A DNA stretch of 37,885 nt, from positions 1-37,885 of the IMG/VR virus record IMGVR_UViG_3300020411_000981, one strand, 5' to 3'. The translations under genes were made by a program, and so were the position numbers. Within the stretch, counting starts at the first letter, position 1, and the number at the start of each line of letters is the position of its first letter. This DNA is from a virus. Under the pieces are notes generated by a model that saw nothing but the letters and a program-made list of their open reading frames with translations, did no database searches and had not been told where the DNA came from. Shown here piece after piece: positions 9,558-35,986 of the stretch.

Positions 9558-12500
9558 ATGATACAAACAGGATTTGATAATAGAGTTAAAATACAAGATA
9601 TTGTATCCAATCAACTTCCAAATTATATTTTGGAAGAGAGTCCTACTGCGGTAGATTTTTTAAAACAATATTATATTTCTCAAGAATATCAAGGTGGACC
9701 AGTTGATATTGCCGAAAACCTTGATCAATACTTGGATGTAGACAATTTAATTCCAGAAGTTATTGTTGGATTTACAACTCTTTCTACAGGTATCAGTACA
9801 TCCTCCACAACGATAAATGTATCCAGTACCAAAGGATTTCCCGATCAATATGGATTATTAAAGATTGATAATGAAGTTATTACATATACTGGATTAACAA
9901 CTGATAGTTTTACTGGATGTATTCGTGGATTTAGTGGTATTACCAGTTATCATCAAGAGTTAAATCAAGAAGAACTTGTTTTTAGTGATACTGAAACATC
10001 AACACATTCATCTAATAGTAAAATACAGAATTTAAGTTCTTTATTTTTAAAAGAATTTTATAAAAAGACAAAATATACTTTTACTCCAGGATTAGAAGAA
10101 ACTGATTTTTATTCTGGACTTAATGTTGGTAATTTTATAAAAGAAGCAAAATCTCTTTACCAAACAAAAGGTACTGATGAATCATTTAGAATATTATTTA
10201 ATGTACTTTATGGAACAACTCCAGATATAATAAATTTAGAGAATAATTTACTTAAACCATCATCTGCAGATTATATCAGAAGACAGATTGCTATTGCTGA
10301 AGTAATTTCTGGAGATCCTTTAAAATTAAAGGGACAAAGTTTGTTTAGAAGTGATATTAATGAAGATATAAACGCATCAGTATCGGAAATAGAACCTTTT
10401 AATAGAGTTGGTGTAGGAACATACTATAAAGTTGGTTTATTTGTTGGATATGATGAAATATCTGATGTTCAAGGTGATTTTATTGTTATACCAAATTCAA
10501 AGTCATTAGAAAACGTTTCTGCTGGATCATCTGTTATTTCTGTAGATTCTACTATTGGTTTTAATACTACAGGAACTATTAAATCTGGTATTAATACAAT
10601 TTCTTATACTGATAAATCAATAAACCAATTTTTAAATTGTACGTGGGTAGGTGCAGGATCTACAATTTATGCTACAGATAATATAAGATCTGATAATTTC
10701 TATTATGGTTATGAGGATGGTGATATTACAAAACAAGTAGTATTGAGATTTACTGGAGTATTATCAAGTTTCTTTAAAACTAGTCCTTTAGATGTTAATG
10801 AAAATGACATAATTTCAGTAAAAACTATTGGTGATAAGGTATTAAATCCAAATAAAAATAAAACTTATAAGCAAATATTTGCAAATTCTTGGATTTATAA
10901 TACCAGTTCATCATATAACATAAAAAGAGGATCTACTACATCTCCATTAACTCTAGATAGTCCAATTTATAGATCAAGTTTAAAATATGGTGATACAGTA
11001 GAAATTGTAGAAAGAGAAAGTAATAAAGTTGTTTATCCTTTAGATGGTGACAATATACCATTTGTATCGGAAGAAATTGATGATGGGACATACATTGTCA
11101 CATTACAAAATTTTAATCAGAGTTTAAATCCAAATATAGAATATAAATTAAGAAGAAAAGTTAGTAAGGCAAGTAGTCTTAATACACCTATTGTTTATGG
11201 TAATGATACAATTTTAGCAGATATTCAGAATGTTTATATTCAAAGGGATAATGAATATGCATATGTTGCTTCCAATTCATTACCAGGATTTAAAGGTTCT
11301 TATCCATACAATGAGCAAATAACAGAGAAAGTAAAGACAATATCTCTGGATATTTCAAATAATGTTGGTTTTCTTACTGGATTATCTGATGATGTATATA
11401 ATACAATTGCATTTGCAGATCAAGTACCTTTTGAAATTGGAGATAGAGTTTTTTATGAGTCTGAAGGATCACCTTTAAGTGGATTAGAAGATGGTATTTA
11501 CTATGTAAATCTAGTTGGTGATGATGGTAAAAGAATTAAATTATATGGATCTAGTTCTGGAATAGTTGATGATAGACATATTACGTTTACAGTTGCTCCA
11601 AATGGTGATGGTGTTCATAATTTTACTCTTTACTCACAAAAATCAAGAGAAATAGGTCCACAAAAATTATTAAAGAAATTTAAATTACCAGCAGATATTT
11701 CAACTGGTATAGGACAATCAACTTCAACTGGTACAACAGGAATGTTGATTAATGGTGTTGAAATTAGTAATTATAAATCACCTGATAAAATTTATTATGG
11801 TCCTATAGAATCTGTTTCTGTATTGAATAATGGTAGTAATTATGATGTAATTAATCCACCAAATTTATTAATCAGTTCTGGTTCTGGTACAACAGCACTT
11901 GCTACTCCTGTTATTAGTGGATCTATTAAAAATGTATCTGTTGATCCACAGAATTTTGATATTGATACTATAACTTCAATTAATATAAGTGGTGGTAATG
12001 GTACTGGATGTATTCTAGAACCTATTGTAGCAGAAAGGTATAGAGAAGTTGTATTTAATGCAAATACGACTTTAAATGGTGGAGGTATTAATACATCAAC
12101 AGAACAGATTGTATTTTTAGAAGATCATTACTTTATTGATGGCGAACCTATAGTTTATGATACAAATTTAAATATTGGACTTGGAGTAGGAAGTGGTGAC
12201 GGAAAATTAGTCAATAATGCAGTATATTATCCCGATATTTCAAATAATAAAACCATAAAATTGCATGAAACATATGCAGATTATGTTGCAGGTATTAATA
12301 CTGTTAATTTAAATGGAAATAATACAGTTGGACTTCATAAATTTAAAGTTGGTCCAAGAAATACATTATTAGAAGTTAAAGTTTTAAATGAAGGTACTAA
12401 TTATACAAATAGATTATTAAAAGTAAAATCAGTTGGTATTAATACTGCTAATAATACTATTAATTTTGAAAATCACAATTTTCAAAGTGGTGAGATTGTA

Positions 12501-15500
12501 GAATATACACCATCTAGTGGACAAAGTGGTGATATAATATCTGGATTAACAACAACAAATCAATATAAAATTGTTAAAATTGATGACAATTCCTTTAGAT
12601 TGTGTGATGTTGGTGTTGGTGCAACAATATCCTCAAATTATATAAGTAAAAATTATATACAATTTGAAAATACAGGTAATGGGTATCAACATTTTTCATA
12701 TCCTAAAATTGAAGCATCTATAGATTTTGTTGCTGTTGGTGTTGGAACTACATCTATTGATTTAACACCAACTGTTAAAGGAAACATAAAAGAGGTTTAT
12801 TTATATGATGGTGGTACTGGATATGGATCAACAATATTAAATGATAGGCAAAGACCATTTGTAAATTTACAAATTGGAAAAGATGCTGCAATGACACCTT
12901 ATGTTGTTAATGGTAAATTAAATTCAATTAACATTGAATATGGTGGAAAAGAATATTATTCAGTTCCAGATGTAACTCTTTTTGATCCTACAGGAAGTGG
13001 TTCTGGTGCTGAAATTAGACCTATTATAGAAAATTTAAAAATAGTTGATACTAAAATTATAAATGCTGGTATTGGTTATTCAACATCATCAGTTATTAAA
13101 GTTACTTCATCTGGTATAAATGCTTCATTTGATGCAAAAATTAGAGGATTACAAATTAATCAATTTAATAAGTTTGGTAAAAATTTATTAGTAGAAAGTT
13201 ATAACAATAAGTTAAAATATACCGTATGTGGATATACAACAAATACATTTAATGATGGTGATAGTAAAACATCAGGTATTATTGGATGGGCGTATGATGG
13301 TAATCCAATATATGGACCATATGGATATACAGACCCACAAGAAAATCCATCAAACCCAACAACTAATCCTGTACGTTTACAGTCTGGTTATGTACTTGAT
13401 ATTAATACTATTAATGATAGACCTGTAGGATTTGCTTCAGGATACTTTACTGAAGATTATTATTATGATAGTTCTGTTGGTGATTTAGACGAACATAATG
13501 GTAGATTTGAAAAAAATGTAGATTTTCCTAATGGTGTTTATGCATATCGTGCATTAGTGGATTCTTCAGATGATCCAATATTTCCATACTTCATTGGGGA
13601 TAAGTATAGATCTATTCCAGAGAAAGAAAATTTAGAAGTATTCGATCAATCACTTTTTGATTTTAATAGTAAAGATATACTTAGAAATACATTCCCTTAT
13701 AAAGTATCTGATAAAAATGCTAATAATGACTTTTTAGTTGAAACACCAGAGATTGTAGATCAGAAAATTGAAATACAATCTGTATCTTCTGGTCCTATTA
13801 CTGGATTTGATATTATTTCTCCAGGGTCAAAATTTAAATGTGGTGATATTTTAAATTTTGATAGTACTGGAACTAGTGGTGATGGATTAATCACTAAAGT
13901 TAAGAATATTAAGGGTCAAAAAGTTAATAATATTGAAACTACAATAGAAGAGTATGATAATTCAATTCTTCTATGGGAAGATAATCAAGTTAAAATTCAT
14001 ATACCAAATAATAATTTAAATGATAAAGACTTTATCAATCTTTCTGGTATATCAACTAATATTTCAAAATTAAATTCATCATATCAAATTGGAATAACTT
14101 CATTTACAGCAAGTACAATTTCTACATGTATAGCTTCACCTAGTGTTGGATTTACTACAGAGATATATGTTTCTTCTATTCCAGATTCAGTATCTATAGG
14201 TAGTAGTATTTCTATAGGTACAGAAACATTAAAGATATTGAATATTTTTAAAAATTTAAATGTTATTCGTGTTAAAAGAGGTTTTACTTCATTTAATGTA
14301 GAGCATCCTGAAGGTAGTTTGGTTAATTATATCCCAGATAATTTTACAATAAATCAAACTGTACCGTTTTTTGATTCTAAACTGAATAATAAAGCATATT
14401 TCAATCCAGTAAAATCAGCTGGTATTGGAACAGAAGATGGTACCGAATATTCAACTACATTTGATTTTGCTGGTAGATCTATTACAAGAAATATTCCAAT
14501 TAGAGAACTTTATATAGAAAATCATGGATTTGAACATAATCAGAAAATTAATTTAACTATACCTTTTGCTGGATCAAATTTATCTGTTTCTACGACTACT
14601 AATAATGTTACTTTTAATTTGCCAACTACTGGATTATATGCTGTACCAAAAACAATAAACACACTAGGTATTAAAACTGGATTGGAACATACAGAGTTGT
14701 ATTTTAGAAGTACTGGTGGCACTGGGGATAATGATGAATATTTGTTAGAAACTGAATTAAATCAAATAACAGGTAAAGTTGATAGAATAAAATCTACTGT
14801 TTCTATTTCTACTGCACATGGATTAACTTCTGGTGATTTAGTAAAATTAGAGATTAAACCAAATCTTTCTGTTGGTCTTGGAGCAACACCTTCAATATCG
14901 GTAGAAAGAAATGAAGGTGCTGGAACATCTAATGATGGTTTTATTTTAATTAATGGAAAAACAATAGGTACAGTTAATATTCATAAGGATAGGATTAATA
15001 TACCAGATCATGAATACAAAACTGGAGATAAGGTATTTTATAGTGGAAGTGCAACTGGTTTAGTTAATAAGAATTCATATTTTGTTTATAGACAAGATGA
15101 TGATTTTATACAATTAGGTCATACTCTCTATGATGTACAACAAGATCCTCCAAATATAGTTGCAATTACAACGGCAACTGGTGGAAATGCACAAAGATTA
15201 GCTCTTATAAATCCACAGATTGAATGTGTAAGAAATAATAATTTAGTATTTGATATATCAAATTCTACATTAAATGGATATAATTTTAAAATTTATCATG
15301 ATAATGAGTTTAAAAATGAATTTGTGTCTACAGGATCTACATCACCCTTTAGTGTTTCTAATGATGGATCTTTATTAACTATTGGATATGGTAGTAGTTT
15401 ACCACCTATTCTTTATTATAATGTAGAAAAATCAGGTTTTATTAGTACCGCAGATAAGGATGTTAAAAATTATTCATCTATAGTATTGGTTGATAGTCTT

Positions 15501-18500
15501 TATAATGGAAATTATAATATTTCTGGAGTAGGTGCAACAACATTTGACATATATTTAAAAAATAAACCAGAAACTTTATCTTATGGATCTACACAATGTG
15601 ATAAGTTAGATTATTCTACAACATCACTATCTGCTGAAGGTCCTATTAATAATATTGATATCGTTTCTGGTGGAAGTAATTATAAAAAAATTCCAACATA
15701 TATTGGAGTATCTGGAACAAATTCTTCTGGTCAAGATGCAGTTATAATACCAACATCAGAATTTATTGGTGATGTTGAAAAAGTAAGAATTATCAATGAG
15801 GGATTTGAATATTCTTCAGATAAAACTTTAGAACCAGAAGCATATATTTCACCTGTAATCCAACTTGACAATGCTAGTACACTTGGAATTGTTAGTGTAA
15901 CTGATGGTGGATCCAATTTCATCACTGCTCCCGATATAATTATCGTTAATACTGATACTGGAGAAAGAATTGAAAGTGGTTTCTTGGAACCAATAATGTT
16001 AGAGAGTTCTATCATAAACATTAATGTTGAAGAACAACCATTAGGTTTACCAGAAACAACTGTAACTTTACGTACAATTAATAATACCAATGGTATTAAT
16101 ATTAAGAGTATTGGGTCAAATTCTGGTTCTACATTCCAATGTACATTAACAACACCTATTTTAGGATTTAATATTCCACCATTCAGTGTTGGTCAAAATG
16201 TCTTTATTGAGGGTATTGAAAAAATTAGTGAAGATGGAACAGGATTTAATTCAGCAGATTATGGATATAAATTACTTACTATTTCTGCATATGATATAAT
16301 TGCTGGTGATGTAAGACTTACCATTGATGTTTCTCCATATACCTCAAACACTGGTATTGCTAAAACATTGCCAACAGAATATGCTTATGCAGTAAATGAA
16401 AATGATTATCCAGAATTTTATGTTAAGCAGGTAACGTCTCCATTTAGCATAGGAGAATCTATTACAGTTAATGGAAATGAAACAAATTTAGTTATTACAG
16501 AGTCATCTTCAAATACTATAAAAGTATCTCAAGACTATACATTTAAAATTGGTGATATAGTTGTAGGTAAGAATTCTGGAAATACAGCAACAATTAAAAA
16601 AATTAGAGAGAATTTTGGAAGATATAAAACTGGTTTCTCATTAATTAAAGATATTGGATGGAATGATACTGTAGGTAAGTTGAGTGATGATACTCAAGTA
16701 ATTGCTAATAATGATTATTATCAAAATTTATCATATTCTATAAAAAGTCCATTAGAATGGAAAAAAATACAAACTCCAGTTAATAATTTACTTCATACTA
16801 GTGGATTGAAGAATTTTTCTGATACTGGAATAACATCAACAGCAGGAGTTAGTGTAGGATCTTCTAATGTTACTAGTATAGTCTATGACATCATAGAAGA
16901 GCATAGAGTTGATACTGATTACTATATTGATATGGTTTATGATGAAGAACCTGCAGGATCAACTTCTAGATTAATTAAATTTGAAAATATAAGATTGAGT
17001 GACTATATTGATTGTAGATCCAATGAAGTATTTACTATTGATAATATAAACAAATCATTCTCTAATTTAAATTCTGGGGTAACACAACATATTGACATCT
17101 TTGAATTTGGTGCAGCAGATATCTACAATAATTATATTGTCAGAATAAACAGTGTTGATCAGACAACTAATGATTATCAAATGAATGAATTAGTTGTTTT
17201 GAGTACTGGTTCTAATAATGCATTATTAGAAAAATCTAGCTTTACAAATTCTGGTGCTGGATATACTTCATATTCTGAAAACATAATAGGAAAATGGGAA
17301 TTATTTGAAGATACTAATATTAATAAGAATTATGTTAGATTTATACCAAATAATCCAAATGATTATGATTATGATATAAAAATTCTTTCCAGCAAATACT
17401 ATTCAAATCTTGCTGGTTTTGGAAGTGCTTCTGTTGGTCCTGTAGATTTAAATTCTTTTGTGGGAACAATTAATAGCGGATCAACTGGAAATATTATATC
17501 AGTTCCTTCTGATAAATTTGGATCTTTCCATGTAACATCTCAAATAACTGATACTGTTACGAATAAGATAAATTTTGTAGAGTCATATGTAACTCATAAT
17601 GGTCAAGATACATTTGTATCTGAATTTTATGTTAATAGTGATTCAACTGCATTATCTTTAGATAAAATTGGTATTTTAACAGCATCTCTATCAGCAAATA
17701 TGTTCTCATTTAATTTTGAGAATGATACATCCAATAATATTAAAGTTAGATCTAAAATTGTTGGATTTGGTACTACTGGAGTTGCAAATGGTGTTTATAG
17801 ATTTACTTCTACTGGACAACCTGATGGTACAGAAAGATCTGCATTCTATCAAGGAATAACAAATATTGGTATTGGTACGACTGCAATATTTAAAGATGAA
17901 GGATTAAATAAATCTGTATTTGATGCTGTTAAATCTATAGTTGAAGTTAGTATAGGATCATCAAAAGCATTACATGAAGTACTGACAATAAATGATGATA
18001 TTGGAGATACATATGTACAACAATCACAAATTTTATCTGTAGATACTGGAAGTAATTCGCAATACGATCCTGCAATTGGACTTGGAACTTTTGGTGGTGC
18101 AGTTGAGGGAGATGATTTTAATGTTTGGTTCCATCCAGATAATTTAACAGGAGTAACTACATTAACAGTATTAAATCAATGTTTCTACAGAAATCTTGAT
18201 TTGGCAAATATTCCAACACCATTAACTTATGGAAAAATTATTGAAGATATTGATAATGAACAATATAATGCTATTAATGGTGGTAGAATTAATAGAAAGG
18301 ATTTCCCATTAAATAGAAATTCTATACCTATTTTTGCAAAATCATTTAATCCATCAGATTCAAATGATTTAAACTTATCCACTGGTAATTTTACATTAGA
18401 TAATCATTACTTTAGAGCAAATGAGGAATTAGTTTATACTCCTGGATCAACATTTGCTGGTATTTCTTCAAGTCCAATGACTTATAAAAATCAGTCAGCT

Positions 18501-21500
18501 GGAATTTCAAGTACATTACCTTCAAGAGTATTTGTTAAGACCGTTGTTAACGAGAATAATTTTACTATTTCTACAACAAGAGCAGGTGCAGCAGTTACTT
18601 TTGTTAATGTTGGTACTGGTAATTACCATCAATTTGCAATGGCAAAGGCAAATGAGAAATCTTTAATATCAATTGATGATATTGTTCAATCACCAATAAC
18701 ACCAACAGATATACAATATACTTTGGAAAATAATGTTGGAAGTCAGATTGGAGCAGGAACATCTATACTTTCATTAAGTGGAATATCAACATTAACTACA
18801 GGCAATTTACTTAAAATTGGTAACGAATTTACTAAAATTCTTGCTGTTGGTATGGGTACTACAACTTCTGGTCCAATTGGAGTAGCAGGAACATATTCTT
18901 TAGTTAAGGTTGAAAGGGCAGTTGCAGGAACTATTGCAACAACATATACTGACACTACAGAAGTAGATTTATTTAAAGGATCATATAATATTACTGGTAA
19001 GGATATTTGGTTCCTAGAAGCTCCACGAGGAAATCCTAATGTTCAACAATTATCAAATGCATTACCATTCCCAACATCAAGCTTTAATGGTAGAGCATAT
19101 TTTAGAAATAATTATGGATCAAATATAATTTATGATGATGTTTCTAATAATTTCAATGGTATTACAACAACATTTACATTAACTGTTGGTGGTGCAAATA
19201 CTACTGGAATAGGAACTAGTGGTGGAAGTGGTATTTTATTCATAAATGGAGTTTTCCAAACACCAACTACAGATAATAATCCAGATAATAATTTCCAAAT
19301 TATAGAAAATGCTGGAATATCTAGTGTTGTATTTACAGGAATTACATCATCTGATGGATCTTTGGCAATATCAGATTCTGATGTAAATATGAATCAACTA
19401 CCAAGAGGTGGTGTTCCTATATCAATAGGATCTTCAAATGGATTGGGATATGCAAGATTGACTCCAGCGATCGTCAGACCAGTGATAGATTCAAATGGTT
19501 CTCTTACATCAATAGTTGGAGTTGGAACGACTGGAACTGCTTTAGGAGTACAAACAGCACAGTATAACAAAGTAACTGGAATAGTAACCATAACAACATC
19601 TTCAGCACATGGATTTGTCTTTGGTTATAATGATAGTGATTCTGTTAAGTTATCTGGATTAGTATTTGAATGTGATGGTGCATATACAGGAATGACAACT
19701 ACCATATTCCCAAGTGGTGTTTATGGAGATCAATTCTCAATTGTATCTGTAGCATCTACCAATACATTTAGTGTTAATGTTGGAACTAGTACAGTTACGC
19801 ATAGTTATGTTGGTCAAGGTACAGTTTATCCTTATTATGGTGATTTAACATTTGGATCTGGTTATAATGATATAGTACCTATAGAGGTTAAAGTTAATGA
19901 TCGTGGATATGATCATAAGTTTGTATCAGCAAGTACTGGAGCAATTAATAAAGTTAGTGGAGGACAATTAACACCTATTTCTGCTGATTATGATCCTGTA
20001 TCAGGAATAATCACATTTACTGCTTCAAATCATGGTATGGTTACCACTGATCTTGTAACTTTAGATAACAATTCTCTCATCTTTACATGTTCTAAAGATA
20101 ATCATACAACAACACATTCATATCCAAGAAATGGAACAGATCCAGTTGCTGGAGTACAAACAAACATAACAAGAGTTAATGAAGATATATTCTCGATATT
20201 TGTTGGTTCTTCTGTTGGTACTGGAGCAGTAGTTACTGCAAGTCCTGTTGGAATTAATACTCATAAATTTATTTCTGGAACTTCACAATCAGTTAAAATT
20301 GTTAATTGTGCTGCAAATCCAGGATTGAATAATACTTTCATTACACCTGCTAATGGAACTTCATACAACCCAGTAAATGGTAGATTAACTATCTTTAAGA
20401 CATCACACAACCTTGCTACTAATGATACTATTTTATTAACTAATAATTCATTATCATTCTCATGTGCACAAGATAGTCATCAAACAGTCCATACATATCC
20501 TCGTGGTGGTTTGGAGCATAAGTTTGTTAGTGCTACATCTACTGCTGTTAATGGATCATTACAACCAATCAATGCCATTTATAATGGAGATACTGGTTAT
20601 ATGACATTAACATTTGCAAGTGCTCATGGAATATCTAATGGAGCAACTATAACTATTGCTGATAATTCATTGACACTGACTTGTGCTAAAGATGGTCATG
20701 CAACTGAACATACATATCCAAGATCAACTGATCCTATTTCTGGAATAGGAACAGTAGTTTCTAACGCAACTGCTAATTCTGGAAAGGATCTTACCGTTAA
20801 TGTTGGTAGATCTGGATTATCTGATCCTATTGCTGGAATAACTACTGCTATAACAAAAACAAGTAATAATGAATTCTATATTGAAGTAGGTAGATCATCA
20901 AATCATGGTGGTGGAGCATTGAAATTTGATATAGTTGGTGCTGGTGTAAGTTATAAGAATCCTTATATAACAGTTTCAGAACCTTCTTATGATAATCTTT
21001 CAGTTAGAGGTATTTCTAGGTTAGGAGAAGGTGCAACAACTGATACTGGTGTTGGTTTATTGGTTAATGCTATTGTTGGTCCATCAAGTACTTTAATTGG
21101 ATCTGATCCTGGATTCTTTGAAATTTCTGAATATGATATTAAGAGATCTGGTTATGCATTTAGAGAGGGTGATATTTTTGAACCAGTTGGATTAGTTACT
21201 GATAGAAGATTGATTGAAATTGTCGATAAAACATCATTAACTGTTGATAAAACATATTCTGATGATTTCTCTCTATGGCAATTTGGTGAATTTGATTTTA
21301 TAGATTCTGTCAAGTCATTCCAAGATGGAACAAGAGTTAAATTCCCATTATATTATAATGGAAGTTTAATAAGTCTAGAAGCAGCTGAAGGATTGGATGC
21401 TGATATTGCTGCAGTATTATTAATCGTTATTAATGGTATTATTCAGGAACCAAATAAGTCATATACATTTACTGGTGGATCAGCATTTGTGTTTACTTCT

Positions 21501-22844: not shown

Positions 22845-24452
22845 ATGCCAGCGGTAGTCACAGATCAATTTAGAATATCGAATGCAAGTAATTTTATAGA
22901 TTCTGTACTAGATTCTAATAATTCTTACTATGTATTTCTGGGTTTACCAAACCCGACAGTTGTTGGATTTGGTAGAACTAGTACTTGGAATAATAATACC
23001 ACAAATAGTATTCCTTCACCAGTAGATAATTTTGAATATTCTTCACATTATAAGGATACTTCACTTTTTGGTAAGAAAGTTAGTAGTGCTAATATTAGAA
23101 GAGTTATAAAGAAATATTCTTGGACAGCTAATACAAGATATGATATGTATCGGCATGATTATCAAGTTGGAATTAATACGGCACCTAATGGAAATACTGG
23201 TAGTTTATATAAAACAAATTATTATGTAATGAACTCTGATTATAGAGTTTATATTTGTTTGGATAATGGATCATATGGTGCAAAAGGGTCTGACACTGCT
23301 AAAGGAACAAGATCTTTAGATGAACCAACATTTACTGATTTGGAACCAGCAGCTGCTGGAATTCAAGATAATTATATTTGGAAATATTTGTTTACGGTTT
23401 CTCCAAGTGATATTATAAAATTTGATTCTACCGAGTATATTGTATTACCAAATAATTGGGAAACTTCTACCGATTCTCAAATTCAAAATGTTAGAGAAGC
23501 TGGCAATTCTGATATTAATAACAACCAAATAAAGAAAATATATATTGAAAGTGGTGGTGATAATTATGGTAATGAAGCAGCAACTGATTATGTTGTTGAT
23601 ATTTTAGGTGATGGTACTGGAGGAAAGGTATTAATATCAGTAGATAATAATGGTGTTATAACTGATGCAAAGGTAACTAGTGGTGGATCTGGTTATACTT
23701 ATGGAGTAGTTGATTTAAGTTCATTTAATTCAGGTGCACTTTCTAATAATACTAAAGCAAAATTAATCCCTATAATTCCACCATCTAAAGGTCATGGATA
23801 TGACCTTTATACAGAATTAGGTGCTGATAAGGTATTGGTCTATGCAAGATTTGATGATTCAACTAAAGATTATCCAACAGATACACATTTTGCTCAAGTT
23901 GGTATATTAAAAAATCCAACTGAATTTGGATCTACTGGAATATCTACAGTTAATCAATATTCTTCATTATATTCATTAAAATTAAATAATACAATCAACG
24001 TTGATAATTTAAATAATGTTATTGGTGTTGGAATAACACAACTTCGATCTGATGGTAATCTTGCTATAGGATATGTTGCTTCTTATGATGAAGACACTAA
24101 AGTTTTAAAATATTTTCAAGATAGATCTTTATATTTTGGGAATGGAAATGATCAAACTGATAATGGCAATATAGGACAAAGTTCAAAAGTCCTCTCTTTT
24201 GAGTCAACTGCTGCAGAAATTAAATCTGTTGCTGCTAATGCATCATTTAGTGTTAGTGTTGATACCAATTTTAGTGGCATAACAAGTTCTGTAGGTAATA
24301 AATTGATCAATTTAGGTGTCAATTTTACTAATGGACTTGCAAATCCTGAGATAAATAAAAAGACAGGAGATGTCATCTACATTGATAACCGTAAAGAGGT
24401 TGAAAGAGATTTAAGACAAAAAGAAGACATTAAGATTATTCTGGAATTCTAA
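22845..24452 (+). CDS. 8: gp8 baseplate wedge protein
   Basis: A 535-aa protein; T4 gp8 has 334. The conserved N-terminal half begins MPAVVTDQFRISNASNFIDSV and includes NNSYYVFLGLPNP, the RVYICLDNG strand, and DNYIWKYLFTVSPSDIIKF, typical of gp8 in marine T4-like phages. Residues about 228-297 form a GSGY-type insertion (IYIESGGDNYG..., TSGGSGYTYG) related to modules in gp7 and gp14. In T4, gp8 dimers contact gp7 and gp10 in the wedge. It has its own late promoter; the next gene starts 5 nt after the stop. Confidence 0.9.
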   Translation: MPAVVTDQFRISNASNFIDSVLDSNNSYYVFLGLPNPTVVGFGRTSTWNNNTTNSIPSPVDNFEYSSHYKDTSLFGKKVSSANIRRVIKKYSWTANTRYDMYRHDYQVGINTAPNGNTGSLYKTNYYVMNSDYRVYICLDNGSYGAKGSDTAKGTRSLDEPTFTDLEPAAAGIQDNYIWKYLFTVSPSDIIKFDSTEYIVLPNNWETSTDSQIQNVREAGNSDINNNQIKKIYIESGGDNYGNEAATDYVVDILGDGTGGKVLISVDNNGVITDAKVTSGGSGYTYGVVDLSSFNSGALSNNTKAKLIPIIPPSKGHGYDLYTELGADKVLVYARFDDSTKDYPTDTHFAQVGILKNPTEFGSTGISTVNQYSSLYSLKLNNTINVDNLNNVIGVGITQLRSDGNLAIGYVASYDEDTKVLKYFQDRSLYFGNGNDQTDNGNIGQSSKVLSFESTAAEIKSVAANASFSVSVDTNFSGITSSVGNKLINLGVNFTNGLANPEINKKTGDVIYIDNRKEVERDLRQKEDIKIILEF

Positions 24453-27400: not shown

Positions 27401-30400
27401 AATAATGATATTCCACTTATTTCAAATCAAATAAGGGCTACTGATGTTATTGATTTTAGACCTAGAGTATCTGTATACAATCCTGCTGTAGATGATAAAT
27501 CTCCATTTGCATTCCAATCAAGGAATTTTAGTGGAGGAATAAAGCAATACTTAATACCTAATGAAAGTTCAACTATAGGTTATGAATATTATTTACCAAG
27601 AATTGATAAACTTTATTTGAATAAGTTTGGTGATTTTGTTTATGAAAAGGGATTATCTGCAGAAAATCCAAAACCACCAGCAAGAAATGATGAATTAATG
27701 CAATTGGCAACTATTAATATGCCACCATATTTGTATAATCCACAAAATGCTTTCTTAACATTGGTTGATAATAGAAGATATACAATGAAAGATATTGGTG
27801 GTATTGATGATAGAGTTTCTAATTTGGAAGAAACTACTACACTATCATTATTAGAATCAAGTGCACAATCTTTACAAATACAGGATTCTGAAGGAAGAAA
27901 TAGATTTAAAACTGGTTTATTTGTAGATCCATTTAGGAATTATGCCAATATCAATAGGTTACTTTCTTCAGTACAGGTAAATCCCAGAAGAAGAGAAATT
28001 ACTGCTCGTCGTACTAGAGATAGTCTTTCATTATTACCTACTCCAAAAGCATCTACTATACCATCCAGTATAGATTTTAATACTGATTATGAATTATTCG
28101 ATTCTAATGTACAAAAAACAGGTAATGTTATTACATTAAAATATGATGAAGTTGATTGGATAACACAAGCATATGCAACAAAGACAGGTGATGTTTTAGA
28201 TATTCTTAATGTAAACCCATATGAACTTCCTGCTATTAGTGCTGATGTACATTTGGATCCTGATTCTGATAATTGGACAAGAACAATTCAACTTGAAGAT
28301 AATACTATACAACAAACGGGAACAAATTCAGTAGATACTCTGAATTTTGATATGAGTCAATCAGGAACATTAGATCTTGGAAATCTTATATTTAATACAA
28401 CATCAGAATCTACTGTTAGGAATCCTGGATGGCGTGCACCTAATAATCGAAGAGTAACAGTTACAGATCAAACAGATGATTTTGGTGGATCTCTTACTCT
28501 TGCTGGATCTTCTAGTGATAGTGTAGTTACAAGTAATACTGATACTACTATACAAAATAGATTATTATCATCTGCTTCAGAAGATTTTATGAGATCTAGA
28601 AATATTGAGTATGTTTCTACAGGATTCCCAGAGCATACCAATATATACTTATTTGTTGATGGTCAACAAATATTTGATATTATTCCAAAACTTGTAGAGA
28701 TTTCACCAAATCCAGAACTTGACGTTGATGGTTCAGTGAATACATTTGTAATAGGTGAAAAAGTAACAGCATATGATTCTGAAGGTAATATAATTATGAC
28801 TTTCAGAATTTGTAGACCAGATCATAAAGAAGGGGCATTTAATAACCCATCTTCACTATATGCAAGTAATCCATATTCTCATGGTAGTGATGGTATTGGT
28901 ACAGATTATACAACATCCTCACCATTTTTAAATGTTGATACTCGTGCTTTATCGGAACAAGCTCAAGGATTATATTCTGGATATCTTACTAAAGGTTGTA
29001 GATTAGTTGGAGAAAATGGAGCATCTGCTTATGTTAAAGATTTGAGATTGGTATCTGATAGTTTTGGTAGTATAGTAGGATCTTTCTTCTTAAGAAATCC
29101 AAATTCTATACCAGCACCAGCTGTTAAGATTAATACAGGTGCTAAAACAGTTACATTAACCACAAGTCAAACTAATAGAAAAGTACTTCCTGGACAAGAT
29201 CCCGATGTTATTGTAGGTGAAACAAATTATACTGCTATAGGAACAGTAGAAGAATGGCAAAATGATATTACTGTAACTACAAACACATCAACATTAAATG
29301 TTAATGCTGGATTTAATGCAACTATAAATGCTGAAGGATCCATGACTTGGAGAAATACACATACAACAAATGCTGTATATACAGATCCATTGGCACAAAC
29401 TTTTGTTGTTGGTGGAAATGTAAATGCACCATCTGCTGTTGGTGCTAATGATGATATGAATGGTGCAATTCTAACTGCAGTTGATGTATTCTTTGCATCA
29501 ATTGATACTGTAACTGAAACACCTGTAAGATGTGAAATAAGAACTACAACAGGAGATGCCCGTCCTTCTATGACAGTTCTTGGAAGTAAAATATTATATC
29601 CAACTAAAATAGATTCAAATGGACAAGTTGTAAATAATATCGAATTTGATCCCGATTCTGCTAGTAAGCCAACTAAATTTGTATTCCCAGAACCAATATA
29701 TTTGGCACCTGGTGCTTCATACGCAGTAGTACTTCTTGCTGAAAAGAGTACTGCATATACTGTATGGACTGCTAGACATGGTGGTACTGCGGTTAATCCT
29801 GCAAGTATACCAGGATCGACTGGAGGGGCATCTATAACATATTCTAGGCAATATGGTGCTGGTGCATTATTTAAGTCACAGAACGGTGCTTTATGGACTG
29901 AAGATCAGACCATGGATATGACATTTAAACTTTATAAAGCTAAATTTACTTCTACTGGTGGTTCTGCATTCTTTAGCAATCCAGATTTAGATGGAAGTAA
30001 TGGATATATTCCAACATTAAGAAACAATCCAATACAAACATTACCAAAAACAGGTTCTGTGGGTATAACAACTATTCCATCTTCCAATACAGTATTAACA
30101 ACTGTTTTATCTGAAGGAAGAAAAATCTGTGGTAATAAGCCAACGAGTACTGCAGTTATTAGTGGTGTTGGATGTTCTGTTACTGGATTGTCAGTTGTTC
30201 CAGATTCTGGTGGTTCTAATTATAAACCAAATGTTACAAATACAAATACTGTAGATGCATTTACAATTACTGGACAAGGTAAAGATTTGAAATTTAATTA
30301 TACTTCGGATGAGAATGGAACAATTACTGCTGTTCAAATAGTAGATGCTAATAGAGGAACTGGATATAAGGTTGGTGATGTAGTTGGAATTGTTACTAGT

Positions 30401-31996
30401 ACTGTTGATGGATCTACTGGAGACGGTGCTAGAATAACTATTCAATCGATTGGTGGTATTGATACTTTGTATTTGACAAATATACAGGGAACAGATACAT
30501 CATATACTGGTGTTGGGGTAAGTTATTTTAATAATAGTGGTAATTTGGTTGGATTGGCAAATACAACAATTTTAGAGACTAATTTCAATAATACTGGTAT
30601 TAATGCAGGAAACACATTTAAAGTTACTCAATTTAATCATGGAATGTATTCCAGTACAAATAAAGTTTCTATACAAAATTTACAAACAGATTCACCATCA
30701 TCTATTTTGGATGTTTCATTAACACAATCTGAAGGAAGTGGTTCTGGAGGAACTATTGGTGTTGCTAATACTACACCATTTGATTTATTTGAAGGTGTTA
30801 AAGTAAGTGCTGCAAATACAGGATACGTTACTGTTGGTGGTGAAATTATTGGATATTCTGGAGTTGGTAATGGTATATTGCAGATAGCAAATTCCAATGG
30901 AAATAAGAGAGGTGTTGATGGCACAAATGCTATTTCACATGAAATTGGTGATGTTATTAGAAAATATGAATTAGGTGGTGTATCTTTAAGAAGATTGCAA
31001 TTAGAACCTAATTCAATTCTCAATGATAATTTTGATCTTGATAGTTACTATCTCTCATTTGATAGATCCAAAAATGGTTTAGATAGATCATCCGATGATG
31101 TTGATATTCCACAATTATCATTTACAAGTGATTCATTTGTTGGTGGTAATAAAGCTAGTGCTACTCAAAATATTCTTTATAGTGCAGTAGTTCCAAGATT
31201 TGATGCATTAACACCTACAGGTATTGGTGGAGCAACTACGGGAATAAATGCTTCTATAAGAACAGTTACAGGAACAAGTGTTTCTGGAACTGAAAATTCA
31301 TTTGTTGATAATGGTTATGAACCAGTGGCATTAAATAGATTTAATAAACTTAATAGTGTTAGAATTGTTGCATCAAAAACAAATGAAAATGAATATTTGA
31401 GTGAAATTCCTAGAAATAAATCATTTACTGCAGTATTAAATTTAACATCAAATGATGAAAATTTATCACCAATGATTAGACTTGGTAGTGGTTCTTCCGT
31501 AGAATTTATAGGTCATCGTTTAAACAATCCTATTGGTGATAATTATGTTCGTAATAGTGGTGCTAATTCTATTTTGAATGATCCACATACAGCAGTATAT
31601 GTTTCCAGTCCTGTTAGATTAACAAAACCAGCAACATCATTAAAAGTTTTATTAACTGGATATAGGCATTCTAGTTCAGATTTTAGAGTTTTGTATGCTC
31701 TAGAAACAAGTGATTCTAGTGAAATTGGGCAAGCATTTGAATTATTCCCAGGATATAGGAATCTTATTGATAATAATGATGATGGATTTGGTGATGTTGT
31801 AATAGATCCAGCATTTAATGATGGTAAATCAGATTCGTTTGTTTCTGCAAGTACTAGAGATCAATATAAAGAATATCAGTATACTGCTGATAATCTTCCA
31901 GAATTTACTGGATATACAATCAAAATTGTAATGTCTGGTACAAATCAGGCAGAACCACCAAGAATACGAGAGTTGAGAACAATTGCTGTACGATGA
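24458..31996 (+). CDS. Giant DUF4815-type virion protein in the gp9/gp10 position (2512 aa)
   Basis: The N-terminal part (NVSPYYDDFSSEKNFYKVLYKPGFPVQARELTSSQSILQNQI at about 8-50, then IFKEGSVVIPGG) is the DUF4815 signature of cyanophage structural proteins. A second conserved stretch lies near 1000-1180 (VIDFRPRVSVYNP, RRYTMKDIGGIDDRVSNLE). Around 1600-1780 are beta-sandwich-like segments (DPLAQTFVV, CEIRTTTGDARPS, ASYAVVLLAEK). A GSGY module sits near 1908-2005 and an RG-H module near 2090-2180, before a C-terminal domain ending AEPPRIRELRTIAVR. Position after gene 8 suggests the wedge periphery or fibre attachment, the role of gp9/gp10 in T4, but I see no clear similarity to those proteins. 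It overlaps the next gene by 4 nt. Confidence 0.8.
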   Translation: MAQKTNLNVSPYYDDFSSEKNFYKVLYKPGFPVQARELTSSQSILQNQIQSFGDNIFKEGSVVIPGGISYDGQYQAVKLNAENYGVDISLYINSFIGKKIIGQNSGVSAFVKFVSFQDGVNVDDLTIYVTYLSGDNDSQLNPFSDGEPLICDENVTYGNTTINAGTPFASLISSDATAIGSAAFISKGVYFIRGYFVNVDDQTIILDNYTNTPSYRVGLKIDELVVTAKDDQSLYDNAKGFTNYAAPGADRLKINLSLTKKLLSDNNDTDFVELMRIDKGKIKILQTKTQYNIVRDWIAERTYDESGDYTVSPFGVSLHNSLNDGLGNGGLYFEDDKTEQRNTPSDDLLAVKVSAGKAYVRGYDVEKVGTTIIDVDKPREVGIKSEVSVNFEMGNILKVNTVEGLPKQGEYVRLFNKFGQAGDNIGSARAYSFNLEDAAYTGDASVWELRLFDIQTNTSLTLNDAVSSTEIPAGSLIEGKSSGASGYTVAAGSNSEYIDVNQTSGSFSKGEQIQVNGIDFSRTIGIITAYNTQNIKSVSATNSLYPDFKANSHLESFRLPNGITNVALGSGGVVTAGSQPFTGLRKGSVVIFNYFMSGDPYYNTVKAIGAGGTSLELEAISPEVPGVFKGSLVSNATVEMKVGAPIVVGSGRLYSPLENINVSTVNLDGSQLKVTKQLTGQEIAGAASTVPIADVTAQYSEITNATFEPFDQERYSVHYQGGGIGTIRNDTFAYGSSNLVFSGLGEGSGSQNVISVSINKKGTKSKVKEYNRSKTLDVIYSNNPLSGSVAVGNGAQQLADGLEYDKRYGLRVQDKEISLNYPDVVKFLAVYESIDTSAPSFDVLKFPSTIDVQTNSIIGEDIVGENSKVIARIVTKPAADKLGIVYLTPDHFSSGEPVKFTESNITTNVESIELGNYKDITNSFTINKGQRHQYYDYSRLVRNDGVSAPSGRLLIVFDYYSVPSDDNGDVFTALSYDKERFNNDIPLISNQIRATDVIDFRPRVSVYNPAVDDKSPFAFQSRNFSGGIKQYLIPNESSTIGYEYYLPRIDKLYLNKFGDFVYEKGLSAENPKPPARNDELMQLATINMPPYLYNPQNAFLTLVDNRRYTMKDIGGIDDRVSNLEETTTLSLLESSAQSLQIQDSEGRNRFKTGLFVDPFRNYANINRLLSSVQVNPRRREITARRTRDSLSLLPTPKASTIPSSIDFNTDYELFDSNVQKTGNVITLKYDEVDWITQAYATKTGDVLDILNVNPYELPAISADVHLDPDSDNWTRTIQLEDNTIQQTGTNSVDTLNFDMSQSGTLDLGNLIFNTTSESTVRNPGWRAPNNRRVTVTDQTDDFGGSLTLAGSSSDSVVTSNTDTTIQNRLLSSASEDFMRSRNIEYVSTGFPEHTNIYLFVDGQQIFDIIPKLVEISPNPELDVDGSVNTFVIGEKVTAYDSEGNIIMTFRICRPDHKEGAFNNPSSLYASNPYSHGSDGIGTDYTTSSPFLNVDTRALSEQAQGLYSGYLTKGCRLVGENGASAYVKDLRLVSDSFGSIVGSFFLRNPNSIPAPAVKINTGAKTVTLTTSQTNRKVLPGQDPDVIVGETNYTAIGTVEEWQNDITVTTNTSTLNVNAGFNATINAEGSMTWRNTHTTNAVYTDPLAQTFVVGGNVNAPSAVGANDDMNGAILTAVDVFFASIDTVTETPVRCEIRTTTGDARPSMTVLGSKILYPTKIDSNGQVVNNIEFDPDSASKPTKFVFPEPIYLAPGASYAVVLLAEKSTAYTVWTARHGGTAVNPASIPGSTGGASITYSRQYGAGALFKSQNGALWTEDQTMDMTFKLYKAKFTSTGGSAFFSNPDLDGSNGYIPTLRNNPIQTLPKTGSVGITTIPSSNTVLTTVLSEGRKICGNKPTSTAVISGVGCSVTGLSVVPDSGGSNYKPNVTNTNTVDAFTITGQGKDLKFNYTSDENGTITAVQIVDANRGTGYKVGDVVGIVTSTVDGSTGDGARITIQSIGGIDTLYLTNIQGTDTSYTGVGVSYFNNSGNLVGLANTTILETNFNNTGINAGNTFKVTQFNHGMYSSTNKVSIQNLQTDSPSSILDVSLTQSEGSGSGGTIGVANTTPFDLFEGVKVSAANTGYVTVGGEIIGYSGVGNGILQIANSNGNKRGVDGTNAISHEIGDVIRKYELGGVSLRRLQLEPNSILNDNFDLDSYYLSFDRSKNGLDRSSDDVDIPQLSFTSDSFVGGNKASATQNILYSAVVPRFDALTPTGIGGATTGINASIRTVTGTSVSGTENSFVDNGYEPVALNRFNKLNSVRIVASKTNENEYLSEIPRNKSFTAVLNLTSNDENLSPMIRLGSGSSVEFIGHRLNNPIGDNYVRNSGANSILNDPHTAVYVSSPVRLTKPATSLKVLLTGYRHSSSDFRVLYALETSDSSEIGQAFELFPGYRNLIDNNDDGFGDVVIDPAFNDGKSDSFVSASTRDQYKEYQYTADNLPEFTGYTIKIVMSGTNQAEPPRIRELRTIAVR

Positions 31997-32199
31997 TTAA
32001 AGTAGAAGGGCATTCACATCTTTATAGAGATGAAAAAACAGGTGCCATAATTAACTGTGATGATCAAGGATATGATCAGTATGTAAGATCATTAAAAATT
32101 AGAGAAAAAAAGGATAGAGAACTTGATAAAATCAAAGAAGATATTGATGAAATCAAGGAATCTCTTAAACTTATAATTAGTGGTCTAAATAAGACCTAA
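31993..32199 (+). CDS. Small coiled-coil virion-operon protein (68 aa)
   Basis: A 68-aa protein starting within the stop of the previous gene (ATGA overlap). The N-terminal half (IKVEGHSHLYRDEKTGAIINCDDQGYDQYVRSLK) is a short conserved motif I know from T4-like phages. The C-terminal half is a heptad-like coiled coil (DRELDKIKEDIDEIKESLKLIIS). It probably binds a neighbour in the baseplate or acts in assembly. The stop lies inside a small inverted repeat. Confidence 0.75.
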   Translation: MIKVEGHSHLYRDEKTGAIINCDDQGYDQYVRSLKIREKKDRELDKIKEDIDEIKESLKLIISGLNKT

Positions 32200-32220
32200 A
32201 TAATAATAACGTTATTATTA
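32182..32220 (+). promoter_or_regulatory. Double inverted repeat with late-type motif
   Basis: GGTCT-AAATA-AGACC (32182-32196) is a 5-bp hairpin over the stop codon, and 32201-32220 is a perfect 20-bp AT palindrome (TAATAATAAC and its complement). Between them lies CTAAATAA (32196-32203), a late-promoter-like motif 32 nt before the next ATG. The AT palindrome lacks the GC stem and T-run of a terminator. Confidence 0.5.
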
Positions 32221-32227
32221 GAAATAG

Positions 32228-32569
32228 ATGGCTGCTGTATATGTATCTAACCTTATAGTAAATGCTAGTGCAACTTTTGCTCAAGAATTCAGTCTTGTTG
32301 AGAGTACTGATGATGGTCCTTTGAATTTATCTGGTTATACTGTAACAGCACAAATAAGAAAACATGCATCTAGTGCTACTAAAAAAGCTGATTTTGCAAT
32401 AGCAATAACAAATGCAAGTGAAGGAAAAATTACTCTTTCCTTAACAGACACTCAAACCAGTTCAATGAAACCTGGTAGATATGTCTATGATGTTGTAACT
32501 GAAATAGGTGGTATTAAAACAAGAGTTCTTGAAGGATCAGTTCTTGTACGGGAGGGAGTTACCAGATAA
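32228..32569 (+). CDS. Small beta-rich virion protein, BppU-N-like (113 aa)
   Basis: A 113-aa protein with an Ig-like beta pattern: FAQEFSLVESTDDGPLNLSGYTVTAQIRKHASSATK (about 17-52), GKITLSLTDTQTSSMKPGRYVYDVV, and KTRVLEGSVLVREGVTR. The layout recalls the N-terminal domain of phage upper-baseplate proteins (BppU-N) and a common cyanophage structural ORF. It lies at the start of the fibre/neck segment and shares one base with the next gene's ATG. Virion location is inferred from context. Confidence 0.75.
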   Translation: MAAVYVSNLIVNASATFAQEFSLVESTDDGPLNLSGYTVTAQIRKHASSATKKADFAIAITNASEGKITLSLTDTQTSSMKPGRYVYDVVTEIGGIKTRVLEGSVLVREGVTR

Positions 32570-33729
32570 TGGCAGATATAAAAGTAAGAATTGGACAATC
32601 AGATGCAATAAAAGTTATTGCTAGTCGTCAAGGTGTGACTGGCGAATCAGCTTCATCTGCTTACGCCAATCAATCAGGTATTTCCAGTTCTTCAAATTAT
32701 GCTGTATCTGCAGGAGTTGCTACGTATACTACCTATGCTGAAAATTCAGGTATAGCAACAAATGTTATTGGTGGTATTGGTTCAGTAACTCAATTAAATG
32801 TATCTGGATTATCAACATTCTCTGGTAATATTAATATACCTGATAATATATCAGCAAAATTTGGTAATGATGGTGATTTAGAACTTGTTCATTACGACAC
32901 TAATCATTCGATTATTAGACATACTGGTTCTGGTAATTTACAAATTTGGGGAGATACTGTTCAATTTAATGCTTCTAATGGAATAGGACCATCTTTAACA
33001 GTAGATACTGGAATTGGTGTTACTGTTTATGGAAATACTGAAACTCAAACCTTAAATGTAACTGGTATTTCTACATTTAATGATGATGTAGTTTTCACGG
33101 GTCAAAATACTAATGCAAGATGGGATAAATCTAAAAGTGATTTAGTTTTATATAATGATACTCGATTAACATTAGGATCTAATGAAGATTTCCAGATGTG
33201 GCATGGAGGTACTAACACCTTCATAAAAAATACTGGTGGTGATCTCCGAATTCGTGGTGATGTTATAAAACTTCAAAGAGAAGATAGTAGCGAGACATAT
33301 CTTAAAGCTACTGTTAATTCGTCTGTAGAATTATATCATGGAATGGGTGGTGCATCAGCAGAGAAAAAAATTGAAACAACCACAACAGGAGCAATAGTAA
33401 CTGGAATTTTAACTGCAAATCAATTTAAAGGTGATGGATCTGGATTAACCGGAGTTACTGCTTCTGGAACTGGTGTTAATGTTAGAGATAATGGATCAGT
33501 AATTGGTGTTGCTGCAACTATTGATTTTGGACAAAATCTTGCAGTATCTCCAGTTTCTACTGGTTTTGTAACTGTAACTGCTACTCCAGTTAATCAATTT
33601 ACTAATTTAGAAGTAACTGGTATTACTACATTATCGAACCTTAAAATTTCTTCTGGAGTTATTACTACAACATCAGGAATTGTTACATATTATGGTGATG
33701 TTGCACAAATAGATGGAGGATCGTACTAA
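32569..33729 (+). CDS. Tail-fibre-like structural protein (386 aa)
   Basis: A 386-aa, Gly/Ser/Thr-rich, beta-repetitive protein. Repeats of the form LNVSGLSTFSG, LNVTGISTFND and LEVTGITTLSN alternate with DLELVHYDTNHSIIRHTGSGNLQIWG and EDFQMWHGGTNTFIKNTGGDLRIRG blocks; FKGDGSGLTGV near 285-295 is a frequent fibre motif. It occupies the place of genes 11, 12 and wac in T4. The short N-terminus (MADIKVRIGQSDAIKV) is probably the attachment part. No chaperone-type self-cleaving domain is visible. Confidence 0.8.
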   Translation: MADIKVRIGQSDAIKVIASRQGVTGESASSAYANQSGISSSSNYAVSAGVATYTTYAENSGIATNVIGGIGSVTQLNVSGLSTFSGNINIPDNISAKFGNDGDLELVHYDTNHSIIRHTGSGNLQIWGDTVQFNASNGIGPSLTVDTGIGVTVYGNTETQTLNVTGISTFNDDVVFTGQNTNARWDKSKSDLVLYNDTRLTLGSNEDFQMWHGGTNTFIKNTGGDLRIRGDVIKLQREDSSETYLKATVNSSVELYHGMGGASAEKKIETTTTGAIVTGILTANQFKGDGSGLTGVTASGTGVNVRDNGSVIGVAATIDFGQNLAVSPVSTGFVTVTATPVNQFTNLEVTGITTLSNLKISSGVITTTSGIVTYYGDVAQIDGGSY

Positions 33730-34574
33730 TGGCAAAACCAGCAACAAGACAAGAATTAATAGATTATTGTTTAAGAAAACTTGGTGCTCCTGTTTTGGAA
33801 ATCAATGTTGATGATGATCAAATAGATGATGCTGTTGACGATGCTTTACAATTATTCAACGAACGTCATTTTGACGGTGTTGAGAGGATGTATTTAAAAT
33901 ATAAGATATCAGAAGAAGATATTGATAGAGGAAAAGCAACTGGAACTGATGGTGTTGGTATAGTTACTACTACTGCTAATTCTACTAATGTAAGTGGAAT
34001 GGGAACAGTAACTTCAAATTGGTACGAAACATCTAATTTTATACAAGTTCCAGATTCAGTAATAGGAATAGAAAAAGTATTTAAATTTGATACGAATACA
34101 ATATCTGGCAGTATGTTTGGAATAAAATATCAATTATTTTTGAATGATTTATATAATTTTAATTCAATTGATTTATTACAATATTCTATGGTAAAGACAT
34201 ATCTTGAAGATATTAATATGCTTTTGACTACAGATAAACAGGTTAGATATAATAAAAGACAAGATAGATTATATCTTGATATTGATTGGAGTGCTCAATC
34301 TAAAGATGTTTTTCTTGTTATGGATTGTTGGAGAATTTTAGATCCAGATCAATTTACTGGTGTTTATAATGATAGTTTCTTAAAATTATATTTGACTGCA
34401 TTAATAAAAAGACAATGGGGTCAAAATTTGAGCAAATTTAAAGGAGTTAAACTTCCTGGTGGTGTTGAATTTAATGCTAGAGAAATATATGATGATGCAG
34501 AAAGAGAAATTGAAGCTATAAGAGAAAGACTAATTAATGAATATGAATTACCACCTTTTGACATGATAGGATAA
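33729..34574 (+). CDS. 13: gp13 neck protein
   Basis: A 281-aa protein (T4 gp13 has 309). The start RQELIDYCLRKLGAPVLEINVDDDQIDDAVDDALQLFNERHFDGVER (about 7-53) and the end (WRILDPDQFTGVYNDSFLKLYLTALIKRQWGQNLSKFKGVKLPGGVEFN) are characteristic of gp13. With gp14 it forms the neck that seals filled heads and accepts the tail. Start and stop share bases with the neighbouring genes (TAATG). Confidence 0.95.
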   Translation: MAKPATRQELIDYCLRKLGAPVLEINVDDDQIDDAVDDALQLFNERHFDGVERMYLKYKISEEDIDRGKATGTDGVGIVTTTANSTNVSGMGTVTSNWYETSNFIQVPDSVIGIEKVFKFDTNTISGSMFGIKYQLFLNDLYNFNSIDLLQYSMVKTYLEDINMLLTTDKQVRYNKRQDRLYLDIDWSAQSKDVFLVMDCWRILDPDQFTGVYNDSFLKLYLTALIKRQWGQNLSKFKGVKLPGGVEFNAREIYDDAEREIEAIRERLINEYELPPFDMIG

Positions 34575-35986
34575 TGGCATTAAATCCCTTCTTTCTACAA
34601 GGTTCACAAAGTGAACAAAGACTAATCCAAGATTTGATTAATGAACAATTACAAATCTATGGGGTAGAAGTAATTTATTTACCTAGAAAAATTGTTAAAA
34701 AAGATAGTCTTTTTACAGAATTAGAATCATCAAAATTTGATGATAATTTTGCATTAGAAGCATATGTGAATACTTATGAAGGGTATGATGGTGCTGGAGA
34801 TATAATGACTAAATTTGGAATGAGTTTGAAGGATGAATTGGTTGTAACAATATCAAAAGAAAGATTTGAAGATTTTATTGCACCATTTTTAGCAACATTA
34901 CCTGAATCTGAAGTTGAAGTAACAACTAGACCTCGTGAAGGTGATGTAATTTATTTTCCATTAGGAAAAAGACTATTTGAAGTTAAATTTGTAGAACATG
35001 AGAAACCTTTTTATCAATTAGGTAAAACTTATGTTTATGAATTGAAGTGTGAATTATTCGAACTTGAAGATGAGATGGGTGGATGGAGTGAACCTAATGC
35101 AATAACAGAAGAAATAGATGAGATTTTAGAAGATCAAGGATATATTACAACAATGAAGATGATCTCTATTGGATCTACTGCAACTTTAGGGGTATCAACT
35201 GCTTCTGGATATATTAGATCAATCAATCTTACTAATGATGGATATGATTATAGTAAAACACCAACAGTTGCAATTAGTACAGCACCTGCTGGAGGAACTA
35301 ATGCTACTGCAGTTGCTATAACAACTTCTATTAATGGTATAGAATCTGTCAAAGAAATATTATTAACTAATCCAGGTGCTGGATATACTGTTACTCCAAC
35401 TGTTACTATAGTTAGTTCTGGATCAACTATATCTAATGGTGTTGGAGCTGCTGCTACTGCTACACTCGTTACTAATTCTGCTGGTATAGGAACTGTAAGT
35501 ATTGCGTCAAGTGGTAGTGGATATGCAACAGATCCGGCAATATATTTCAATACACCAACTTCTGGTGTTGGCACTGCTATTGCTAGATCTTGGATAAATG
35601 CTGCTGGATTTGTAACTTCTATTCTTATTTCAGATGCTGGTATTGGATATACTGCAGGAACTGGTATTGCAACAGTTGCACCTCCTCCAGTTATTTCTGG
35701 TGTAGGAACTTATAAGTATAATGAACTTGTAACTGGTTCTGTTTCTAATGCTAAAGGTAGAGTTAAAACTTGGAATAGGGTTGATAATGTTCTTAAGTTA
35801 GGTACTACAAGTGGTACATTTACACCAGGAGATGTTGCTATAGGTGCTACATCAGGTGCTAGATATACTGTTGATTATGTCGAGTCTGCTGAATTTGTGG
35901 ATAAATATGATAAAGGTGATGAAATAGAAACCGAAGCAGATTCTATTTTAGATTTCACAGAGACGAATCCATTTGGTAACGTATAA
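34574..35986 (+). CDS. 14: gp14 neck protein with a large beta-repeat insertion
   Basis: A 470-aa protein against 256 in T4. Residues 1 to about 193 are gp14-like (NPFFLQGSQSEQRLIQDLINEQLQIYGVEVIYLPRK, KDELVVTISKERF, GDVIYFPLGKRLFEVKFVEHEKPFYQLG), and the last 90 residues end DSILDFTETNPFGNV as in the family. Between about 195 and 373 lie four GSGY-type units (TNDGYDYSKTPTVAIS, NPGAGYTVTPTVTI, SSGSGYATDPAIYF, SDAGIGYTAGTGIA) like those in gp7. The insertion may form an external decoration of the neck. Confidence 0.92.
   Translation: MALNPFFLQGSQSEQRLIQDLINEQLQIYGVEVIYLPRKIVKKDSLFTELESSKFDDNFALEAYVNTYEGYDGAGDIMTKFGMSLKDELVVTISKERFEDFIAPFLATLPESEVEVTTRPREGDVIYFPLGKRLFEVKFVEHEKPFYQLGKTYVYELKCELFELEDEMGGWSEPNAITEEIDEILEDQGYITTMKMISIGSTATLGVSTASGYIRSINLTNDGYDYSKTPTVAISTAPAGGTNATAVAITTSINGIESVKEILLTNPGAGYTVTPTVTIVSSGSTISNGVGAAATATLVTNSAGIGTVSIASSGSGYATDPAIYFNTPTSGVGTAIARSWINAAGFVTSILISDAGIGYTAGTGIATVAPPPVISGVGTYKYNELVTGSVSNAKGRVKTWNRVDNVLKLGTTSGTFTPGDVAIGATSGARYTVDYVESAEFVDKYDKGDEIETEADSILDFTETNPFGNV

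Follow-up and report, generated by a model that had tools for sequence, protein, structure and literature searches.

Do four otherwise different virion proteins of one phage share a single added domain, is that domain exchanged between them, and what might it do? The question arises from a sequence-only reading of a viral contig, in which repeats of the form GG-x-GY-x3-P-x-V/I-x-I were noticed in gp7, gp8, a DUF4815 protein and gp14, and were proposed to be an exchangeable surface domain of baseplate and neck, binding glycans or forming lateral contacts. The window analysed here is the whole 37.9 kb IMG/VR contig (37,885 nucleotides). Its source is a T4-like phage of marine origin; among named phages, S-SRM01, P-SSM2, S-SKS1 and S-T4 are the closest to it (about 44-58% identity for gp14 and gp8). 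The genes concerned are arranged as follows:

7640-9556: gp6
9558-22811: gp7-type wedge protein, 4417 aa
22845-24452: gp8
24458-31996: DUF4815 protein, 2512 aa
32569-33729: fibre-like protein
between the fibre-like protein and gp14: gp13
34574-35986: gp14
after gp14: gp15

Gene 18 lies beyond the end of the window, so that the presence of the domain in this phage's own sheath is not visible from it. The repeats aside, gp14 and gp8 are, as had been suggested, typical of their families. The neck core of gp14 matches PF11649 (1.3e-34) and phrog_460 (1.6e-120), with T4 gp14 structures as its top fold matches, and the gp8 core belongs to the PF09215 family (phrog_438, 2e-144; VIA Z 18.9 to 1n7z). 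Foldseek searches with both proteins gave confident matches only to T4-type core homologues. The giant gp7-type protein also contains a YHYH domain (PF14240, 5e-19; 13254-13553), and several copies of a different repeat can be seen by eye in its translation at aa ~3320-3740 (~19515-20780), with the rough form YNPVTG..TLT..SHG...D.ITL.NNSLTFTC..DGH.T.HTYPR.

All of the coordinates originally given for the repeat fall in frame on the motif, in gp7 (aa 748-789, 1078-1191, 2028-2139 and 4151-4221), gp8 (aa 230-295), the DUF4815 protein (aa 1908-2003) and gp14 (aa 211-373). The motif is thus real, but the formula proposed for it is too strict, since as a regular expression it matches literally only once, in gp7 (22032-22070). 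The real signature is therefore looser: I-x-x-[IV]-x-[IV]-x-N-x-G-[SA]-[GN]-Y-x(2-3)-[P/GD]-x-[VI]-x-[VI]-(loop)-G-x-[GA]-A-x-A-x-V, over about 40 residues. A profile of gp14 units, searched against this phage and its relatives, had been suggested as a check. The three best units of gp14 served as the seed of an HMM, which we iterated over 215 ORFs of 14 phages, with locally shuffled sequences as decoys (best decoy 6-8 bits). It converged on ITSVTITNGGSGYTVGPTITISGPPSGGSGA and recognized units clearly in gp14 (36.9, 31.8, 23.5 and 6.4 bits) and gp7 (27.7, 27.1, 24.2, 23.3, 18.6, 16.4 and 6.9 bits), moderately and once in DUF4815 (15.8 bits), and marginally in gp8 (7.0 and 5.3 bits, by itself decoy level). 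Additional units were found in gp7 at aa ~937, 1414 and 3785, sites that carry units in relatives. The units and modules of the window are:

11805..11927, + strand: gp7 aa 750-790, GSGY unit; HMM 24.2 bits; same site in relatives
12366..12437, + strand: gp7 aa 937-960, degenerate unit; 1.5 bits; units at the site in relatives
12786..13157, + strand: gp7 aa 1077-1200, three successive units (aa 1077, 1121, 1163); 2.1, 23.3 and 6.9 bits; cross-matches to phrog_460 (3e-8) and phrog_701 (3e-13); relatives with units at 1122 and 1163
13797..13907, + strand: gp7 aa 1414-1450, GYxVGD-type unit; 3.7 bits; clear unit at the site in 26 relatives
15645..15992, + strand: gp7 aa 2030-2145, three successive units (aa 2030, 2073, 2109); 18.6, 2.1 and 16.4 bits; PHROG cross-matches
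20910..21032, + strand: gp7 aa 3785-3825, degenerate unit; no window score listed; unit at 3788 in 8 relatives
22008..22262, + strand: gp7 aa 4151-4235, two-unit module; 27.7 and 27.1 bits; 26 and 33 relatives at the sites
23529..23783, + strand: gp8 aa 229-313, two-unit module with six predicted strands; AF2, VIA, hhalign
30191..30457, + strand: DUF4815 aa 1912-2000, two-unit GYxVGD-type module; 15.8 bits; carries GTGYKVGD in an alignment of 17 relatives
35210..35701, + strand: gp14 aa 213-376, four-unit array; 36.9, 31.8, 23.5 and 6.4 bits; AF2

Profile-profile comparison joins gp8, DUF4815 and gp14 (2.7e-8, 7e-6 and 1.2e-4), the best of these values being that of the DUF4815 module profile against gp8 by hhalign, across both units. 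The gp8 fragment also matches the gp14-family phrog_460 (2.2e-6), eight of its residues (G238, Y241, G255, D256, G257, G280, G281 and Y284) do not vary among 48 gp8s, and a module profile built without gp8 or gp14 sequences matches both proteins in complete phage genomes. We therefore consider gp8 a true carrier. At each site, 48-49 homologues show little or no variation in the signature glycines and tyrosine. Taken together, the unit HMM, the profile-profile comparisons and the PHROG cross-matches indicate that, at the level of sequence, one homologous beta module is common to these four otherwise different structural proteins. It matched no Pfam or NCBIfam family at cut-off and nothing credible in the PDB by sequence (spike-protein matches at E 0.8 lay outside the module), apart from a weak profile match to tailspike chain 28lx_A (E 0.056). 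A literature search for the motif letters found no paper.

To describe the fold, we used AlphaFold2 models of gp14 (49 homologues) and gp8 (48 homologues), which place about three strands in each unit. Confidence was high in gp8 aa 220-310 (pLDDT ~80-95) and mostly 79-93 in the gp14 array, with one block of 62. The gp8 module has six predicted strands (232-236, 247-255, 261-266, 272-279, 287-289 and 306-309). The best explanation is that a GSGY unit is a three-strand half and that two units make one six-stranded domain; the gp7 and DUF4815 modules would have the same fold. A preference for even unit numbers in bacteria, as might be expected if two units made one barrel, was also considered; the counts were unconvincing given the bias of a two-unit query.

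The gp14 array is flanked by a second type of repeated segment, FTVGEKITGSTSGATARVVSVDSDTKTLKVKQVSS..GTFSTGETITGS, common to gp14, gp8, DUF4815 (three copies) and gp7 (one copy). Its own iterated HMM gives 27-55 bits, vs. up to about 8 for decoys:

16443-16595: second module, gp7
24021-24140: second module, gp8
24743-24916, 25877-25999 and 27026-27184: second module, DUF4815, three copies
35711..35872, + strand: gp14 aa 380-433, second small barrel (SGA type) flanking the array; own HMM 55.5 bits; a strand also near aa 190

By VIA, the gp14 and gp8 copies resemble EF-Tu/eIF2-gamma barrels (Z ~5-6.5), the gp14 matches spanning residues 190-441. The second module may be a small barrel like EF-Tu domain III, although the likeness in these models may reflect a common arrangement only. 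The gp14 GSGY array looks inserted into this barrel.

Is the GSGY module mobile? We compared its sites across 160 related contigs and 12 named phages. Among the marine relatives, 469 of 482 distinct units matched best to the same site of the same protein. The same was true of 51 of 67 units in the divergent named phages, vs. a mean of 5.3 and a maximum of 15 when sites were permuted within phages. The module is nonetheless extra relative to T4, whose gp14 and gp8 contain no detectable unit, and in P-SSM4 gp14 the neck core runs straight into the flanking barrel, with both flanks kept and the array absent. The impression of an inserted module thus holds, but not as a new insertion: a recent insertion in this phage was rejected in view of the conservation across homologues and the same sites in relatives. 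A cassette recently moving between gp7, gp8, DUF4815 and gp14 within the phage group could be imagined from the presence of the unit at several sites and the empty gp14 site of P-SSM4. The orthologous nearest neighbours and the permutation largely refute this idea, which we consider very improbable, and the exchange originally proposed is not seen among marine T4-like phages. Since the sites are fixed, yet empty in P-SSM4 gp14 and in T4, the sequences indicate that the marine lineage acquired the domain in these proteins early on, or that other lineages lost it, and that it has since been passed on by descent; over longer times it appears to come and go.

Nor is the unit restricted to the four proteins first listed. 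Marine relatives carry it in a putative tail fibre (S-SRM01) and weakly in gp5, and the tail sheath of Stenotrophomonas phage IME-SM1 (NC_054952.1, 82934-84988) has two full GSGY units at aa ~242-310 (21.5 and 29.3 bits; module-profile match in the annotated sheath, E 9e-9). It occurs in many PHROG structural families, tail-fibre PHROGs included, and many proteins of bacteria and archaea contain it, frequently as tandem copies spaced by about 40 residues; the bacterial and archaeal fragments tried matched no Pfam or NCBIfam family at cut-off.

A probable relative of the module is domain I of the T4 tail sheath protein gp18. The gp8 module aligned with T4 gp18 (3fo8, residues 99-188, end points only) at VIA Z 5.8 (3.0 A, 75 residues), and with the KP1 sheath (9ev2_S1) in the same place at Z 5.1, the only 2 of 50 VIA rows confined to the module part of the gp8 model. 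It should be noted that a Z of 5.8 is below 8, the level clearly above common arrangements, and is no proof alone, and that no gp18 was among the VIA candidates for the gp14 module. The unit HMM scored 10.8 bits on T4 gp18 aa 103-118 (ISTPGSNYAVGDKITV), vs. 7.5 for the best of 2000 shuffles. On T4-type sheath domains, it scored 8.8-20.3 bits at the same place in 33 of 33, all of which have a G-S-N-Y-x-V-G-D turn after the first strand. Module profiles matched gp18 domain I by hhalign at 1.3e-5 and, for DUF4815, 7.8e-5, over 21-23 columns only; gp8 alone did not match gp18 (0.15, elsewhere), and T4 domain I as a single sequence fell on the modules of the gp14 and gp8 profiles, not significantly. 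We also ran the Pfam model of the domain (PF22639, Gp18_dom_I; curated cut-off 27 bits) over 14 phage records. Outside T4, it gave 10 sub-threshold matches (8.1-24.7 bits), 9 of which overlapped independently found modules. The cut-off was reached only by T4 and the window gave no match, and we therefore describe the module as a probable relative of domain I rather than a member of this family.

In T4, the six strands of gp18 domain I form a barrel that stands out from the tail without gp18-gp18 contacts and serves as a binding site for the baseplate and for long tail fibres in the retracted state; G106S, S175F and A178V, in two of its loops, block fibre retraction (PMC3004832). Numbering without the initiator Met brings all three mutant positions into agreement with the sequence. 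G106 provides the signature glycine (in PGSNY), and S175 and A178 lie within an SSSSGLAA loop that corresponds, by eye, to the GSGA turn. The marine sheaths checked contain no GSGY unit. In a separate observation, the likeness of marine T4-like sheaths to T4 gp18 was limited to the N-terminus and the part beyond about aa 351, with a different domain I-II region in between. The resulting distribution, sheath vs. baseplate and neck, is reciprocal, which is suggestive, albeit from few lineages and a distant relation.

On balance, we lean towards the view that the modules are barrels related to gp18 domain I that form protruding docking or lateral-contact surfaces on gp7, gp8, DUF4815 and gp14. 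They would sit on the baseplate wedge (gp7 and gp8), the protein of the adjoining DUF4815 gene and the neck (gp14), added between the core domains of their carriers and most likely protruding from the virion. They would offer surfaces to, for example, folded-back fibres or neighbouring tail proteins, as in T4, and would be neither catalytic nor recently swapped receptor-binding domains. Their outward position and docking role are inferred from T4. The lateral contacts suggested initially are a plausible possibility through the likeness to domain I, and fibre docking in marine phages is suggested by analogy only. A fibre-like protein is encoded at 32569-33729, between DUF4815 and gp13, at the place of wac in T4, and is a candidate partner for such surfaces. 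A broader and decidedly speculative extension is that GSGY barrels are one general docking element of T4-like tails, carried by the sheath in the T4 clade and by baseplate, DUF4815 and neck in marine relatives lacking the sheath copy, and serving fibre storage or baseplate latching at the two tail ends.

Other readings were weighed against docking by domain I-like barrels. The gp18 likeness could be convergence on a common beta hairpin and GxxY turn, the four-protein module being real and unrelated to the sheath, and both the modest Z of 5.8 and the limitation of the gp18 sequence match to some 16-23 residues would fit. However, the fold, the unit HMM in 33 of 33 sheaths and the co-location of PF22639 matches (9 of 10) all point to the same place, and the sheath of a T4-like phage of Stenotrophomonas itself contains two full GSGY units, at another position. 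Convergence seems to us rather unlikely. We give about the same weight to inert padding, in which a stable beta spacer would add thickness or stiffness to large marine T4-like virion proteins, making intramolecular or nearest-neighbour contacts only and having no docking partner. The variable number and preservation of the units (gp14 unit 3 is the least conserved of its array) and the wide spread of tandem arrays in bacterial and archaeal proteins are consistent with padding, whereas the near-invariance of the signature glycines and tyrosine in 48-49 homologues per site, which may be needed for folding alone, and the binding of fibres by the related gp18 domain I argue against it.

The glycan binding first proposed, by which surface domains would attach the phage to polysaccharide of the cell surface or the environment, found no support, and no carbohydrate-binding family of Pfam or NCBIfam was matched at cut-off. 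The unit does occur in tail-fibre PHROGs, the putative S-SRM01 tail fibre and many bacterial proteins, and the tailspike match (28lx_A) points the same way. However, gp14 in the neck is far from the host surface and the conserved positions are Gly, Tyr and Pro, typical of turns, making this function improbable in our view. Our data provide a likely fold and a testable role for a widespread repeat that had no Pfam or NCBIfam model in our searches, and indicate which residues to test. They also connect 'structural protein' annotations, scattered over abundant marine phages, with a domain of T4 whose genetics are long established (G106S, fibre retraction).

How do these modules compare with known systems? 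The window proteins are full members of PHROG 460 (head closure Hc2, gp14) and PHROG 438 (baseplate wedge, gp8), whose profiles include the module region; the entries do not describe it as a shared domain. In tailed phages, Ig-like domains are small, beta-structured and present as additions to a wide range of virion structural proteins. GSGY modules are analogous additions, but consist of repeated three-strand half-units, and gave only scattered sub-threshold matches to the Pfam Ig-like families, none at cut-off. The IME-SM1 sheath insert has full GSGYxxxPxVxI units like those of the window, but in another protein and at an insertion point that differs from that of T4 domain I. T4 gp18 domain I (PF22639; 3fo8, 9ev2) is located on the sheath (aa 98-188) rather than on gp7, gp8, DUF4815 and gp14, and has a clear signature in its first half only. 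Nevertheless, its six strands equal the number predicted for the gp8 module, which aligns with it structurally, and it shares with the window modules the G-S-[GN]-Y-x-V-G-D turn and insertion in a structural tail protein.
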